Source of the DNA: a virus
DNA: 21,544 nt
Direction: 5' to 3' (one strand)
IMG/VR virus record: IMGVR_UViG_3300036985_001186
Span: 1 to 21,544 of that record
Part shown: piece after piece, positions 2,982-13,575 of the stretch
Position numbering within the stretch: position 1 is the first letter of the stretch
Layout: every line of letters starts with the position of its first letter
Notes under the pieces: generated by a model
Told to the model about the DNA's origin: nothing
What the model saw: only the letters and a program-made list of their open reading frames with translations
The model's database searches: none
Made by a program: the position numbers and the translations under genes

Positions 2982-3505
2982 TATCTAAAGTTTAATAAGA
3001 ATCTTTGTTCAACACCTTTGGCATATGCCGTTAATAATTGCTCGCTGTAATCTTCCCATGTATCATTAATTGCATCTTGATAGTAGTTGATGCCTTCTAT
3101 ACCATTTTCACCAATGCTTTTTGCAATGGCAATAGCAGCGGATTTGATTGCGCTCTCAGTTGACTTGATGAATTCACCCTGTCTATTGCGGAGTTTGAGT
3201 GGTTTGATTTTAATCCACTGCATGATGTCTTTGTATGGTGGTCTTTTTGTTGGATCACCCGGATATGGTTTGCGTCCGTACTCAATCACATCCGCATACC
3301 TGCCCGCATCACCTTTGACAGTAAAGTCAATAGTTGGCTTGTTATAACGTATGCGCAGTTTGTAGGTAAGTGAGTTAAGCAATGTGCCAGACGCAACGCG
3401 GTTGACCACCTTACCACGCACGCGGCGTTTAATACGCAAGTTTGATTGCGCACGCTCTACGACCGTTGCCGCATATTCGTTTAGTAGTGCCTCGTAATCT
3501 TCCAT
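2981..3505 (-). CDS. HK97 gp10-like head-tail/tail completion protein
   Basis: The 174-aa product has a basic N-terminus (NLRIKRRVRGKVVNR) followed by LLNSLTYKLR and VIEYGRKPYP...RPPYKDIMQW. This is the layout of HK97 gp10-type neck or tail completion proteins, in which a 'V/F-E-Y/F-G' strand precedes a P-rich turn and a C-terminal helix. No catalytic residues are expected. It is coupled by TAATG overlaps to the genes on both sides. In lambdoid phages this family acts at the head-tail joint, which fits a neighbour carrying a terminator-like domain. The family call is by motif only. Confidence 0.65.
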   Translation of the reverse strand: MEDYEALLNEYAATVVERAQSNLRIKRRVRGKVVNRVASGTLLNSLTYKLRIRYNKPTIDFTVKGDAGRYADVIEYGRKPYPGDPTKRPPYKDIMQWIKIKPLKLRNRQGEFIKSTESAIKSAAIAIAKSIGENGIEGINYYQDAINDTWEDYSEQLLTAYAKGVEQRFLLNFR

Positions 3506-6309
3506 TACAATACTTCTTCAAATTCAATTATGGACCCCGCCCGTACAGTTAAACCGCCGATACTGGCACATCGGACACGTACAGTTACGGTTCCATTTGC
3601 CGTCGGTCTGATTACGCCATCCGCTGTACATAGACTATTTGCGCCCATTGCTTGATTTGATCCCGAATCGTATGCCGTTTGATTGTTAACAGCGTTAGTA
3701 TTTACAGTATTTGAGGCGGTAAATCTATACACATTGAAAGTCGGTGACGCTGGCCCCGTTAAACTAAATGTGCTTCCCGTGGTTGTAGTGAATGCAATTG
3801 TAGCGCGCCACTTATAAGTCTTGTTAGCTGTAACAGCAAAAGACAAATCAGTAACACTCTCAAAGCCTGTAGTAGCGTTTGTAAATGCCGCCGCTAAAAT
3901 CGCCGTACTTATTGCTAAATCACTTTTAATCTGTGCAAGCGTCAATGCGCTCACTGTGTTATCTGCATTGATACGCAAGTAACGCACAGCACTTGGGTTC
4001 GGCAGTGTCGCAAGGTTAGTACCTACCGTAGTAAGTCCGATGCTGTTTTGCTTACCGTTAAAAGTTGACCAGTCTGCGCTACTTAATGCACCACGATTTG
4101 CAGCACTTGCAGTGGGCAGGTTGAATGTGTGTGTACTTCCTGCGCTACTGATTGCAAAGTCTGTTCCTGCTGTGCCCGTGGCTAGGTTTTGCACCTGCGC
4201 TGTTATGCCATTGATAGCATTAACACCCGTGCTGAGTGTGGTTATCACTTGACTTAAATGCGAATTCTCAGTATGTAATTTAAGCGTGCGACCTGATGTA
4301 GTTACAAATACACGTAATGCAAGTCTATCGGTCAAAGTCATCACTGTCGCGGGTACTGCCAGCGCAGTAAAATATGCGTCTATTGTTGTGCCATTAGTAA
4401 TACCTTCGGGAGTTGCAACGTCCGTAGCTAACAACGTAAATGTGCTGCCATCATACTTGTATAACTCAACATAGAATGAAGGACTGCCACCACTTGATGA
4501 TGCACTAAAATAAAGTTCTAAATTAAAGTTTCCTCCCGGTATTAATAACACATTTGGATCATTGACATCTGTGATGAACTGTGCTATTAATCCATTGCCT
4601 GCTGCATTGGTTCTTGTGAAATCTGTGCCCGCTCCAAATATTGCCGTCTTGCTCATTTGGTAGTAAGTGCTACCACCTATTGTACCCTGATTGATTGAGC
4701 CGTTTAGATAGTAACTAACGGATGAGCCGCCGCCGCTAGTGGTTGGAAAGTTTGCAAGTTGACCATCACCCCGCACGTATTGCGTTGCAAGTCCAGCACC
4801 CGTTACCGCAAGCGTTCCTGATGTGGTAACAGGTGAACCTGTAACATTAAAAGCCGAAGGCATTGTAAGGCCCACGCTTGTAACTGTGCCACTGCCTGCT
4901 GAAATAGTTATATCTCCCGTTGCCGCGTTTGGTGTGACGCCGTTAACCGACAAAGCGAAAACGCCTGTGCCTGATGTGGGAAAATCGATGTTATTTATTC
5001 CAGCGCGTTTGTAGTTTGTGGATGGATCTAAGCCATTATTGCTGTTAATGGTTATCACCCCCTCAGTTCCTGCCCCGTTTGGTTTTAGCTGAGCTAACAC
5101 CTGATTAAGTGCCGTCTTTACTTGAAAACCAAAAACGTTTTGAGTAATGATGCTATTAGTCGTTTCAAATCCTATATCCGTAACCTGCTGTAAATTTTGC
5201 GGAGTTGGTATAGTTGGCTTGTTTAAGATTTGCGCCACGCCACTCACAGCATTCCAGTCTGAATTGACTTGCGCTGCGGGAATGGTTGGCTTATTCAAAA
5301 TCTCCGATACTCCACTTACACTATTCCAATCTGAGTTTACCTGTGCAGCGGGGATGGTAGGTTTGTTCAAGATTTGAGCTAATCCACTTGACGCATTCCA
5401 ATCACTGTTAACCTGCGCCGCTGGTATTGTCGGCTTATTCAATATCTGATAGTCTCCACTCGAAGCATTCCAGTCTACGGGTGATTGACGCAAGCGATAG
5501 CCCACAGCTTGCAGTGTCCAGTACGTTGGGTTAGTAGGATTGATTGCATCGTTGTTAGCTATGCACGCATACACGCTGCCGTTGTACCATACCCTATCAC
5601 CTATCACATACGGATTGCCTAATGCCGTAATGTGGTTTGTGTTGTATTCAGTAGACACGTACACCTGCGGCCCACCTCCACCACTTGCATCAAATGTCAC
5701 CGAGCCATCACCGTTGTCTGTTATTGTAATGTTTGTCCCGGCAACTAAGTCAAGAATGTTTTGAACCGCATTGTCTACGCCGTTGGTGCGAAGTACTATG
5801 CCGATAGGCGAACCACTGCCGCCTGATGATGAACCACCAACAGCCCACACAGCAGGAATGTCACAGGCTGACCAGTCCCACGGAACTTCGAGTTGTAGTG
5901 AGAAAGTCACACCCGTGAGCGTGTTCTTATATTCCTCCATGAATGGTTCAATGACGGGCGGAGTTACCAGCTGCACATCAAATCCAAATAGCACAAGACC
6001 GTTCTTGACTTCTGAAATCAAATCCTGTGCAAGGCGTACGCAGTCGCTAATCACTTCGCGCTGGTATTCTGCCTTTACTTCTTTGTCACGCGGGATGTCT
6101 GCAAAAATGATTTGAAAATCAAACTGCATACCACCGTCGACAGGCTTTATGTTGTTAGGTACAACGTGCATGAATGGATACTGCTCATCTTGATCCATAT
6201 CCGCAAGGTCAATCTGTCCATGCGTGAATCGTTTGATGAGTAAGTGACCTGCGGCAAATGCCTCCAGGCGATTAATCAAAACGTTGTAACTGTAATTGTA
6301 ACTATTCAT
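3505..6309 (-). CDS. Tail/neck protein fused to a tail-fibre-like repeat region, 934 aa
   Basis: Residues 1-152 form a compact domain (MNSYNYSYNVLINRLEAFAA ... VPWDWSACDIPA) that resembles small neck or tail-terminator-like proteins of Bacteroidetes phages, which normally stand alone. A Gly/Ser linker (about 157-168) follows. Residues about 232-266 contain GDRVWYNGSVYACIANN...PTYWTL, similar to CBM5/12-type carbohydrate-binding modules. Residues 279-374 are four 24-aa repeats (DWN...ILNKPTIPAAQVNS). The rest is typical fibre sequence, including GTVTSVGLTMPSAF, ATQYVRGDG and NRGALSSADWSTFNGKQNS. The stop of the frameshifted chaperone product overlaps its ATG (TAATG). Likely role: a virion protein whose C-terminus binds host surface glycans. 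The fusion is seen in sequence; the functions are inferred. There is no frameshift or internal stop. Confidence 0.85.
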   Translation of the reverse strand: MNSYNYSYNVLINRLEAFAAGHLLIKRFTHGQIDLADMDQDEQYPFMHVVPNNIKPVDGGMQFDFQIIFADIPRDKEVKAEYQREVISDCVRLAQDLISEVKNGLVLFGFDVQLVTPPVIEPFMEEYKNTLTGVTFSLQLEVPWDWSACDIPAVWAVGGSSSGGSGSPIGIVLRTNGVDNAVQNILDLVAGTNITITDNGDGSVTFDASGGGGPQVYVSTEYNTNHITALGNPYVIGDRVWYNGSVYACIANNDAINPTNPTYWTLQAVGYRLRQSPVDWNASSGDYQILNKPTIPAAQVNSDWNASSGLAQILNKPTIPAAQVNSDWNSVSGVSEILNKPTIPAAQVNSDWNAVSGVAQILNKPTIPTPQNLQQVTDIGFETTNSIITQNVFGFQVKTALNQVLAQLKPNGAGTEGVITINSNNGLDPSTNYKRAGINNIDFPTSGTGVFALSVNGVTPNAATGDITISAGSGTVTSVGLTMPSAFNVTGSPVTTSGTLAVTGAGLATQYVRGDGQLANFPTTSGGGSSVSYYLNGSINQGTIGGSTYYQMSKTAIFGAGTDFTRTNAAGNGLIAQFITDVNDPNVLLIPGGNFNLELYFSASSSGGSPSFYVELYKYDGSTFTLLATDVATPEGITNGTTIDAYFTALAVPATVMTLTDRLALRVFVTTSGRTLKLHTENSHLSQVITTLSTGVNAINGITAQVQNLATGTAGTDFAISSAGSTHTFNLPTASAANRGALSSADWSTFNGKQNSIGLTTVGTNLATLPNPSAVRYLRINADNTVSALTLAQIKSDLAISTAILAAAFTNATTGFESVTDLSFAVTANKTYKWRATIAFTTTTGSTFSLTGPASPTFNVYRFTASNTVNTNAVNNQTAYDSGSNQAMGANSLCTADGVIRPTANGTVTVRVRCASIGGLTVRAGSIIEFEEVL
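5188..5475 (-). repeat. Four tandem 72-bp (24-aa) repeats within the fibre gene
   Basis: Four in-frame units of exactly 72 bp each encode DWN(A/S)xSGxxxILNKPTIPxxQ and lie end to end. The protein unit is nearly invariant, while the DNA copies differ at many third positions. 'DWN...I.NKP' repeats are common in phage tail-fibre shafts. Confidence 0.9.
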
Positions 6310-10439: not shown

Positions 10440-11690
10440 ATGTTACAAGTTAAAAAAGAATTTAAGGATTTAATTCCTGCCTTATTGCCTGATGAATTTA
10501 CTCAGTTAGAACACAACTGCATAAAGCACGGCATACAGGACAGCATCAAAGTATGGAGCGGCTATGTAATAGACGGGCATAACCGTTATGAGATTGCACA
10601 AAAGCACAAGTTAAAATTTGACATTGAAGAACTAAATTTTGAAGACGAGTTAAAGGTTCGTGAATGGATGATTTTAAACCAATTCGGCAGAAGGAATTTG
10701 AGCAACTACCAGCGGTCAATACTTGCATTGCAACTTGAAAATGTTTTTAAGGAAAAAGCAAAAGAAAAACAAAAGGAAGCTGGTGGTGCGGTTCCGCAGA
10801 AATCTGCCGAAGCGCCTGTTGAAACACGCAAAGAACTTGCAAAGGTTGCGCTAGTATCGCATGATACTATTGCAAAGGTCAAACAAATTGAGCAAAAGGC
10901 CTCGCCTGAGATAAAAGCCAAACTAAACACAGGTGAAGTAAGTATTAATCAAGCCTATCAAGAAATTAAGAAGGAAGAAAAAATTGCGCAACGTGAGCAG
11001 AAAAGGCAAGAACTTGAAAGTACAATTGACAACATTGATAGTACAGCAAAATATAATTTTTCCATTGATAATTTACAGCACGGATGGTATAAGGTAAATA
11101 ATCAGTTTTTATATTTTGGCAGTAACACTGATAAAGAGTTTATAGATTTTTTACCTAAGGCTAAATTTGTTTTTGCTGATCCCCCTTATAACGCAGGTGT
11201 TGATGAATGGGACTACAATTTTAAATGGCAATTAGATTATCTACAAGATAAAGCTGATGTGGTTGCTGTAACACCCGGCGGTTGGAATGCTTGCAATTTT
11301 TACAAAGAAACACAGATGAATTACATATGGGAAATGTTTTGCTGGATTAGCAACGGTATGACACACGGTAAATGCGGTTATGCTAATGTGATTAAGACAA
11401 GTATCTTCGGTAGTGTAAAACCTAAAATATCTCAGGACTTTTGGAAAATATCTATTCGAGTAAACGAAACAGAAGACACTCAGCATAAGGGTCGTAAACC
11501 GTATGAATTTATGTTTCACTTATTAGATGTCTTTACAAAAGAATCTGATATTGTCATTGACCCATTTGCCGGTAGCGGCACTACTTTGATTATGTGTGAA
11601 CAAATGAACCGTATATCTTATAATGCCGAAATCAATGAACAATACTGCCGCCTCATTTTTGAGCGTTCCGGTAACGCAGTCAAAATTTAG
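10440..11690 (+). CDS. ParB-like domain fused to DNA methyltransferase
   Basis: The 416-aa protein has a ParB-type N-domain (VIDGHNRYEIAQ, residues 43-54) with following helices (to about 190), then a methyltransferase domain. This has motif IV DPPY at 247-250 and the SAM-binding motif I DPFAGSGTT at 374-382. The order IV before I fits the beta class of amino-methyltransferases, which modify N6 of adenine or N4 of cytosine. Such ParB-methyltransferase fusions are common in phages, where they may protect phage DNA from host restriction. It lies downstream of the strong promoter at 10301-10331 and overlaps the next gene by 68 nt. Target sequence unknown. Confidence 0.9.
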   Translation: MLQVKKEFKDLIPALLPDEFTQLEHNCIKHGIQDSIKVWSGYVIDGHNRYEIAQKHKLKFDIEELNFEDELKVREWMILNQFGRRNLSNYQRSILALQLENVFKEKAKEKQKEAGGAVPQKSAEAPVETRKELAKVALVSHDTIAKVKQIEQKASPEIKAKLNTGEVSINQAYQEIKKEEKIAQREQKRQELESTIDNIDSTAKYNFSIDNLQHGWYKVNNQFLYFGSNTDKEFIDFLPKAKFVFADPPYNAGVDEWDYNFKWQLDYLQDKADVVAVTPGGWNACNFYKETQMNYIWEMFCWISNGMTHGKCGYANVIKTSIFGSVKPKISQDFWKISIRVNETEDTQHKGRKPYEFMFHLLDVFTKESDIVIDPFAGSGTTLIMCEQMNRISYNAEINEQYCRLIFERSGNAVKI

Positions 11691-12245: not shown

Positions 12246-12998
12246 ATGGCACAAGACCCGGCATTTCTTTTTTACTTCCAAGATTTCTTAGTAGGCACGG
12301 ATGATATGGACAACGATGAAGTTGGTGCGTATATCCGCTGCCTATGCCATCAAGCTGCAAAAGGATGCATAACTGAAAAACATATGATGAAGATATGTTT
12401 AAGACAGGACGTGTACGAAACAGTATCCAGCAAGTTTGTCCGCGGCGAAGATGGCAACTACTGCAACGATCGTTTATCTTCTGAGATTAGCAAGCGTAAG
12501 GCATTTGCTGAATCAAGACGAAACAACAGATTGAAAAAAACATATGATAAACATATGTCAAAGACAATTGACACATATGTTCCACATATGGAAAATGAAA
12601 ATGAAAATGAAAATAAAGATGTAATTAAAAAGACTGCGCGCAAAAAGTTTGTGAAGCCTGATGAGAATGATGTGTACAACCTGATGGGTGAACTGAATTC
12701 AAAAGGCGGTAACTTTCTTACCGATGACAAGTTGGTTAATTTTGCCCGCACCTTTATTGATTACTATGAAGCAAAGGGGTGGGTAGTAGGCAAGTCACCA
12801 ATGAAGGACTGGAGCAGCGCAGTCCGGAATTGGATGCGCAGTGAATGGGACAAAGTAAAAAATCAAAAACAAAACACATATGCAAAACAATCAAATTCAA
12901 CAGCAGACAGCATTGCAAAAGCTGAACAACTTTTCCGCGATGCAGTCGCTATCAGTAACGCACGCGATCAAGCAAGACAAGATAGCACTCCTGCGTAA
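12246..12998 (+). CDS. Replication initiator-like protein (DUF1376-like N-terminus)
   Basis: The 250-aa protein begins AQDPAFLFYFQDFLVGTDDM followed by DNDEVGAYIRCLCHQAAKG. I recognise this as the N-terminal winged-helix-type region of Bacteroidetes phage replication proteins related to DUF1376. A linker with MENENENENK separates it from a C-terminal domain (YYEAKGWVVGKSPMKDWSSA, VRNWMRSEW) that occurs in the same group. The layout resembles lambda O or DnaD-like primosomal proteins, which bind the origin and recruit helicase. The candidate origin at 12538-12635 lies at the linker, as the lambda origin lies within gene O. It overlaps the next gene by 119 nt. Replication role inferred from family and context. 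Confidence 0.75.
   Translation: MAQDPAFLFYFQDFLVGTDDMDNDEVGAYIRCLCHQAAKGCITEKHMMKICLRQDVYETVSSKFVRGEDGNYCNDRLSSEISKRKAFAESRRNNRLKKTYDKHMSKTIDTYVPHMENENENENKDVIKKTARKKFVKPDENDVYNLMGELNSKGGNFLTDDKLVNFARTFIDYYEAKGWVVGKSPMKDWSSAVRNWMRSEWDKVKNQKQNTYAKQSNSTADSIAKAEQLFRDAVAISNARDQARQDSTPA
12538..12635 (+). other. Candidate replication origin: CATATG iterons plus A-rich tract
   Basis: Four CATATG palindromes start at 12541, 12552, 12574 and 12585, at spacings of 11, 22 and 11 bp. The first two are AAACATATG, the others ACACATATG and CCACATATG. They fall in two different codon phases, so a protein repeat does not explain them. An A-rich, strand-asymmetric tract (12590 to about 12635, GAAAAT repeats) follows. 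Single copies also lie at 12381 and 12878. Confidence 0.5.
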
Positions 12999-13575
12999 GC
13001 TGGATAGAACAACTACAAAGGTTAAAATCATGCAGCTCGTGACGCGATGTACGCAATTGCTCAACGTGCAGAACAACATGAACTCAGTACAGATTGAATT
13101 TTGCGCTGAGAATATTCTTGACAAGATGTGGATGTACAGTCTTGAAGATATACAACTGTGTTTAGATCGTGGTGCTATTGGTGAATACGGCACAATCTAT
13201 AACCGCATAGACCCTGCTACTATCCTTGCATGGTTTCCTAAGTATGATGCGCAACGTCAAACTGTAAGCGATGCTATCAATGAAAACAATAAGCAGCACA
13301 ACAACATCTACGAACTGTTTGCACATCCGCAAATCAGCGAAGCCATGCAAGATGTTGTAACAAAAATGGATGCAAAAATGTTACAGACACCGGCACAAGA
13401 ACCAACACGTGAACAGCCGTCACAACTTGAGATAGCGTTGATGCGTGAGTATGATGCGCTGCCACAGTGGGACAACGACATGCGATTCAGAGTGTACAAG
13501 AACAAGCCTTACCAGTTCACAGAGTTCCGCATGGAGCGTTACCGCGAATTGATTGAAGACCAAAATGAATATTGA
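12880..13575 (+). CDS. Replication-associated hypothetical protein, possible helicase loader
   Basis: The 231-aa product contains FCAENILDKMWMYSLEDIQL and CLDRGAIGEYGTIYNRIDP, then ILAWFPKYDAQR. I recognise this pattern ('W.Y.LEDI..C......G.YG..Y.RID') from a protein that often follows the replication initiator in Bacteroidetes phages. Its function is not established; a helicase loader or primosomal partner is a guess from position. The start at 12880 overlaps the upstream gene by 119 nt; ATG 12940 would shorten this to 59 nt and would remove a Gln/Asn-rich stretch. The C-terminus is charged. No Walker motif was seen. Confidence 0.7.
   Translation: MQNNQIQQQTALQKLNNFSAMQSLSVTHAIKQDKIALLRKLDRTTTKVKIMQLVTRCTQLLNVQNNMNSVQIEFCAENILDKMWMYSLEDIQLCLDRGAIGEYGTIYNRIDPATILAWFPKYDAQRQTVSDAINENNKQHNNIYELFAHPQISEAMQDVVTKMDAKMLQTPAQEPTREQPSQLEIALMREYDALPQWDNDMRFRVYKNKPYQFTEFRMERYRELIEDQNEY

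Follow-up and report, generated by a model that had tools for sequence, protein, structure and literature searches.

Phage genes that encode replication initiators may also carry the DNA on which those initiators act, and the question is whether this holds for the gene at positions 12,246 to 12,998 of the viral record IMGVR_UViG_3300036985_001186, in which copies of the palindrome CATATG recur at regular intervals. The record was analyzed from position 1 to 21,544, and this whole stretch of 21,544 nucleotides is hereafter called the window. A sequence-only reading had proposed that the repeats, together with an adjoining A-rich tract, form a candidate replication origin built on the plan of the lambda origin.

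The lambda O protein comprises a DNA-binding N-terminal part and a helicase-loading C-terminal part. The lambda origin (oriLambda) consists of iterons and an AT-rich tract located in the middle of gene O, and additional iterons lengthen the protein (PMC7466680). In phage SPP1, oriL lies within gene 38, the replisome-organizer gene encoding G38P, and contains repeats and an AT-rich unwinding element (PMC6316719). In the Staphylococcus aureus phage 80alpha, deletion of ORF20 was not complemented in trans, and an origin within ORF20 was inferred (PMC5499656). No report on origins associated with DUF1376 was found in the literature searched, which did not cover most subscription papers.

Materials and methods

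A first set of relatives was obtained by scanning viral contigs, yielding 79 loci at 41-95% identity. Since the seeds of that scan included the linker peptides HMENENEN and EKHMMKIC, the search was repeated with an N-terminal alignment only, whose seeds lie outside both arrays. In the codon test, synonymous codons were permuted within each gene, leaving the protein and the codon usage unchanged. For the motif-first search, viral contigs were scanned with CATATG-N5-CATATG-N5-CATATG and no protein in the query; homologs were assigned afterwards by profile search. The AlphaFold2 model was built on an 89-sequence alignment. The relatives are not phylogenetically independent, and all counts come from related phages.

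Results

The CATATG array

The arrangement reported by the sequence-only reading was reproduced in all its details: four CATATG palindromes spaced by 11, 22, and 11 bp (Table 1) occupy codon phases 1, 0, 1, and 0, and their flanks form two pairs (AAACATATG twice and A/C-CACATATG twice) which start 33 bp apart. The claim that all sites lie on one face of the helix holds to within about 2 bp across four turns. The array can be described as five 11-bp steps, the third of which (12563) is degenerate; loci L064 and L074 carry a full CATATG at each of four successive 11-bp steps. Three or more copies within 50 bp occurred in none of 300 simulated 21.5-kb windows of the same local dinucleotide composition.

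A second 11-bp pair, which the sequence-only reading had missed, lies 160 bp upstream and consists of CATATG at 12381 and GATATG at 12392. The 31 nt around this pair repeat positions 12536-12566 at 87%; because of the 160-bp distance, the two copies stand in different reading frames, which alone points to a signal at the DNA level. The lone CATATG located further downstream is kept in L002, L003, and L005.

Table 1. Features of the initiator locus (positions refer to the window)
Feature	Position	Strand	Basis or remark
Initiator gene, 250 aa, DUF1376-like/primosomal type	12246..12998	+	Pfam, phrog, Foldseek
Winged-helix-like N-terminal domain, aa 11-73	12276..12464	+	AlphaFold2, pLDDT mostly 90-98
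Upstream iteron pair CATATG-N5-GATATG	12381..12397	.	within winged-helix-coding part
Long basic helix, aa 75-96, ..KRKAFAESRRNNR	12468..12533	+	AlphaFold2; proposed iteron-specificity determinant
Iteron 1, CATATG	12541..12546	.	sequence
Iteron 2, CATATG	12552..12557	.	11 bp past iteron 1
Degenerate middle step of 11-bp grid, GACAAT	12563..12568	.	
Iteron 3, CATATG	12574..12579	.	sequence
Iteron 4, CATATG	12585..12590	.	adjoins A-rich tract
A-rich tract GAAAATGAAAATGAAAAT..., encodes ENENENEN, candidate DNA-unwinding element	12591..12635	.	duplex stability
C-terminal helical domain, aa 140-213	12663..12884	+	AlphaFold2; proposed helicase/loader contact
Lone CATATG	12877..12882	.	overlaps start codon of next ORF
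Next ORF, 231 aa, lambda P (loader) position	12880..13575	+	by position only

The initiator-like protein and the A-rich tract

The window protein matches Pfam DUF1376 with E 1e-3 and 19.9 bits, below the cut-off of 30.1, and it is therefore called only DUF1376-like, a name which its structure neighbors support: Foldseek returned phage models annotated as DUF1376, Lin1244/Lin1753-like, Replication protein, and Replisome organizer. Its phrog match is a primosomal protein. A Foldseek search of the PDB with the protein model returned no solved structure at E<=0.001, a family-profile sequence search of solved structures gave no match, and neither did a search of NCBIfam. No O-like profile matched the window protein itself, whereas the relatives L358 and YdaU match in their C-terminal parts (phrog_678). 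Among relatives, C-terminal domains are exchanged, belonging to O-like (phrog_678) or DnaB_2 replication-initiation families. The only match of the following ORF was phrog_35728, of unknown function.

AlphaFold2 predicts a winged-helix-like domain with a short two-strand wing at residues 11-73 and a low-confidence linker at residues 97-139; the winged-helix assignment rests on a model. The proposed position of the array, in the part of the gene coding for the linker of an initiator-like protein, agrees with the model, in which the array encodes a disordered linker between the winged-helix-like and helical domains. With no fold to keep, the linker would leave its codons free to carry iterons and a melting tract.

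The A-rich tract noted after the array coincides with a weak point of the duplex: no 40-mer of the gene is less stable than the one beginning at position 12592, and in the window as a whole, 12591-12630 falls below 99.87% of 40-mers in stability. Across 114 relatives, the 40 bp following the last CATATG have a median instability percentile of 96 within the gene, and their coding strand is 60% A. Codon choice in the tract is nearly uniform in relatives, with GAA and AAT each used in 99% of cases, compared with 78% and 59%, respectively, elsewhere.

Conservation of spacing in relatives

The sequence-only reading had named conserved spacing despite codon change among relatives as a check, and this is what the comparison revealed, the spacing being kept while codon phase and amino acids change. 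Among 172 non-redundant genes, the 281 distances of up to 40 bp between neighboring CATATG sites comprise 206 of 11 bp, 37 of 12 bp, 24 of 22 bp, 6 of 23 bp, 2 of 24 bp, and six larger ones, with none below 11 bp or between 13 and 21 bp. The sites occupy all three frames, both in the linker (159/128/39) and in the N-terminal part (43/53/57). The upstream pair is present in 89 of the 114 genes with linker CATATG pairs (null mean 10.4, maximum 17). The array was also recovered with the N-terminal seeds, in contigs from Bacteroidota, Clostridia, Bacilli/Acholeplasma, Saccharibacteria, and others.

Synonymous shuffling of 36 non-redundant genes gave a mean of 6.7 and a maximum of 15 exact 11-bp pairs in 500 shuffles, compared with 43 observed. 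In the window gene alone, the two CATATG pairs at 11 bp were reached by 26 of 500 shuffles and the three [CG]ATATG pairs by 3 of 500, a modest result because the gene's own peptide TYDKHM..TYVPHM fixes part of the sequence. It is the family-wide test that is decisive. Histidine preceding methionine is encoded by CAT in a ratio of 52:1, compared with 71:52 elsewhere.

These data bear on the possibility that the repeats are a by-product of peptide repeats (HM, TY, ENEN), arising from selection on the protein or from slippage. The tract does encode ENENEN, and L059 contains in-frame 12-bp HMSxHMSx repeats; however, sites that occupy each of the three frames while their spacing on the DNA stays constant, a signal destroyed by synonymous shuffles, encoded residues that differ among relatives, and the absence of any structure there in the AlphaFold2 model leave this explanation with very little probability. 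For the iterons, the codon tests refute it. Slippage may still have shaped the tract, where it could help to explain the repeat itself, though not why it lies beside the array. Elsewhere in the window, positions 5147-5377 contain in-frame repeats (QVNSDWNASSG..ILNKPTIPAA) within a 934-aa structural protein encoded at 3505-6309.

Motif-first searches and locus specificity

The CATATG motif alone led to the same gene family. At least 120 stretches matched, and among the 80 loci listed, 65 carry the array inside a homolog of the window protein, and 69 have one no more than 1.5 kb away. With the spacing changed to 10 bp, the motif matched 14 stretches, none with a homolog of the window protein. 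GATATC at 11-bp spacing was dropped as a negative control: it matched at least 120 stretches, and about 70 of the 80 listed lie, by eye, in a second replication-protein family, identified as replication initiation O-like. As GATATC found this O-like family, another palindrome cannot serve as a negative control, whereas the 10-bp spacing remains valid.

Of 32 phage records between 28 and 49 kb long, 29 contain the 11-bp pair, and they contain it at the initiator locus alone, except for a record in which the gene is present twice and an extra pair at a distance of 0.4 kb; the control, a reversed pattern, matched nowhere in the 32 records. Record G012 (L504/L505) has two copies of the initiator gene, approximately 28 kb apart, each with a CATATG array.

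Members of the second family (L201-L280, e.g., L278:1370-2083) begin with MRIKNWxKFQHFKDRxPPW... and have the linker DDIxxISxxYQDDxxETETETE; GATATC at 11-bp spacing is followed by a purine-rich tract, that is, the same plan with another palindrome. The cultured Xanthomonas phage PBR31 (L532) has three GATATC at 11 bp, and Limnohabitans phage DC33 (L531) has two. CATATG arrays with 11-bp spacing also occur in L081, L120, and L142 in a different protein (..KGGRPTKDN..VGLGAYEKHMDTICKPYGF..) which does not match the initiator profile and may represent another initiator family.

Other iterons and the basic helix

The sequence-only reading would have been refuted by relatives encoding the same protein without phased repeats. 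Relatives lacking CATATG are not such counter-examples, because many carry a different phased palindrome in the same positions. In sister clades, TGCCNNGGCA or TACCNNGGTA occupies this position, and the basic helix preceding the linker is then invariably another one as well; one of these clades (L017-L049) retains the same C-terminal part but has lost the CATATG array and carries TGCC-N2-GGCA repeats instead, in both the linker and the upstream position. A search for out-of-frame repeats identified TACC-N2-GGTA at 11 bp in L358 and L382, CAATTG at 11 bp in L377, and CCCACGGG at 23 bp in L388.

The helix before the linker follows the iteron. SRxxN was found in 112 of 114 CATATG genes, the other two having neither motif and none having QR..W, and QR..W was found in all 14 TRCC-N2-GGYA genes, none of which has SRxxN. 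On the winged-helix tree, the iteron class switched at least three and at most six times. The helix motif goes along with the iteron in each supported switch; with only three supported, the sign test is non-significant (p=0.25), as three pairs are too few. The clearest case is the pair L097 and L146, in which the first 220 bp are nearly identical and the C-terminal domains closely resemble each other, but helix and linker iterons differ; these were replaced together, the old CATATG array being left upstream.

The diversity of palindromes also concerns the idea that the phage's own methyltransferase targets the CATATG clusters, or that these are otherwise related to modification or restriction. 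CATATG is indeed a palindromic hexamer, and an N6_N4 methyltransferase is encoded 0.6 kb upstream. Nevertheless, this idea was dropped as hardly tenable: the hexamer is neither enriched nor avoided in the window (10 found compared with 8.6 expected), L014 has the array, yet no methyltransferase is encoded between its nuclease and initiator genes, and other clades have other palindromes in the same place. The enzyme of the window (10440-11690) is a 416-aa protein with a terminal N6_N4 methyltransferase domain and an N-terminal part of ParB-like appearance; it is absent from that place in L014.

Escherichia coli Rac ydaU

E. coli K-12 ydaU (L335:11512-11577) contains three TGTTYRAACA palindromes at spacings of 33 and 23; they are the only ones in 22 kb, all lie in the linker code, and none of 2000 shuffles reached three. 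Like the window gene, ydaU encodes a DUF1376 N-terminal domain and has linker-coded palindromic iterons followed by an A-rich stretch; it differs in its iteron, in its wider spacing, and in an only distant protein similarity, and its C-terminal domain is O-like. E. coli ydaU alleles recombine near the linker: that of strain AR_0006 combines the Rac C-terminal part with another N-terminal part and another repeat, AGCGTTAC. The Rac prophage has an active origin, oriJ (PMC3945230), and we infer that oriJ is the ydaU TGTTYRAACA site.

Discussion

We consider it likely that the array marks a replication origin of the lambda/SPP1 type embedded in the initiator gene. The observed arrangement has the sequence-level features of a lambda-type embedded origin, since repeated palindromic sites conserved as DNA lie inside an initiator gene, in the code of its interdomain linker (residues 97-139, unstructured in the model), beside an AT-rich tract of low stability. 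The reading rests on the 11/12-bp spacing conserved across codon phases, on a pair count which synonymous shuffles never approach, on a motif-only search which leads to the initiator family, and on the clustering of the 11-bp pair at one locus per phage record, a near-exclusivity to the gene which, like the DNA-level conservation, is a direct observation. It rests further on the duplex weak point after the last CATATG with its near-total use of GAA and AAT, on the observed joint switching of iteron and basic helix, and on the domain plan and the family matches of relatives. The earlier proposal of a candidate origin thus gains support from the spacing kept across codon phases, the linker location, and the O-like and DnaB_2 domains of relatives, while binding, melting, helicase loading, and the start of replication remain inferred.

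According to the mechanism we propose, the 250-aa protein would use its winged-helix domain and basic helix (..ESRRNNR) to bind CATATG steps spaced one turn apart, building a compact nucleoprotein array over approximately 50 bp of its own gene. The adjoining A-rich tract would then open, and the C-terminal domain, on its disordered linker, could bring the host helicase or its loader to the opened DNA. The upstream pair, 160 bp away, would be bound by the same protein, perhaps for looping or regulation.

GC skew was set aside as an origin marker, being suggestive in relatives and absent in the window. The skew step at the array had a median percentile of 0.85 in 18 records (4-kb flanks), a weak effect, and a percentile of 0.42 in the window, where the site therefore does not stand out; the record itself is only a fragment of 21.5 kb.

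The array could also be a genuine binding site of the window protein, or of a repressor, which serves autoregulation of the operon rather than initiation of replication. A protein bound at the upstream pair, less than 160 nt into the gene, could block transcription, and the lone CATATG covers the start codon of the next ORF. We regard regulation as an improbable sole function, although not one to be disregarded, given that both arrays lie inside coding sequence, that the main array is joined to a conserved A-rich tract of low stability, that the protein groups with primosomal, O-like, and DnaB_2 replication families, and that the plan equals those of oriLambda (PMC7466680) and SPP1 oriL (PMC6316719).

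The preferred reading, an origin embedded in the initiator gene, places the locus beside known systems. The lambda-like plan suggested earlier is borne out, in that palindromic iterons and, after them, an AT-rich tract lie midway through the initiator gene, as in oriLambda (PMC7466680), including that of Stx phages. Lambda, however, has four imperfect inverted repeats of approximately 19 bp, whereas in the window the palindromes are hexamers with a period of 11 bp; a second array, in the code of the DNA-binding domain, likewise sets the window apart from lambda; and the window protein lacks an O-like match, unlike lambda O, with the C-terminal parts of some relatives matching phrog_678. SPP1 oriL similarly lies inside a replisome-organizer/initiator gene, but SPP1 has two distant origins, unlike our reading of the window. 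Embedded origins are a known kind; relative to the literature searched, what looks new is the compact 11-bp array, the layout with two sites, and the exchangeable cassette of helix and iteron.

As to that cassette, we propose that DUF1376-like initiators carry an exchangeable unit of helix and iteron, in which the helix reads the adjacent palindrome and a joint swap shifts origin specificity, the two-site layout being part of the origin; we judge the chances for and against this proposal to be even. The pairing of helix and iteron amounts to a recognition code that can be tested directly, and with E. coli Rac ydaU the reading becomes testable in a laboratory strain.

DUF1376 is still a domain of unknown function in Pfam. 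On the reading favored here, the arrays would mark the origin and a DNA-binding role of DUF1376-like genes in Bacteroidota, Clostridia, Bacilli, Saccharibacteria, and others, the binding being inferred, and low-complexity linkers such as HMENENEN and YQDD.ETETET would be explained as DNA signals, not as protein features. If the proposed cassette is real, phages could change their origin specificity in one step, leaving the gene otherwise unchanged.
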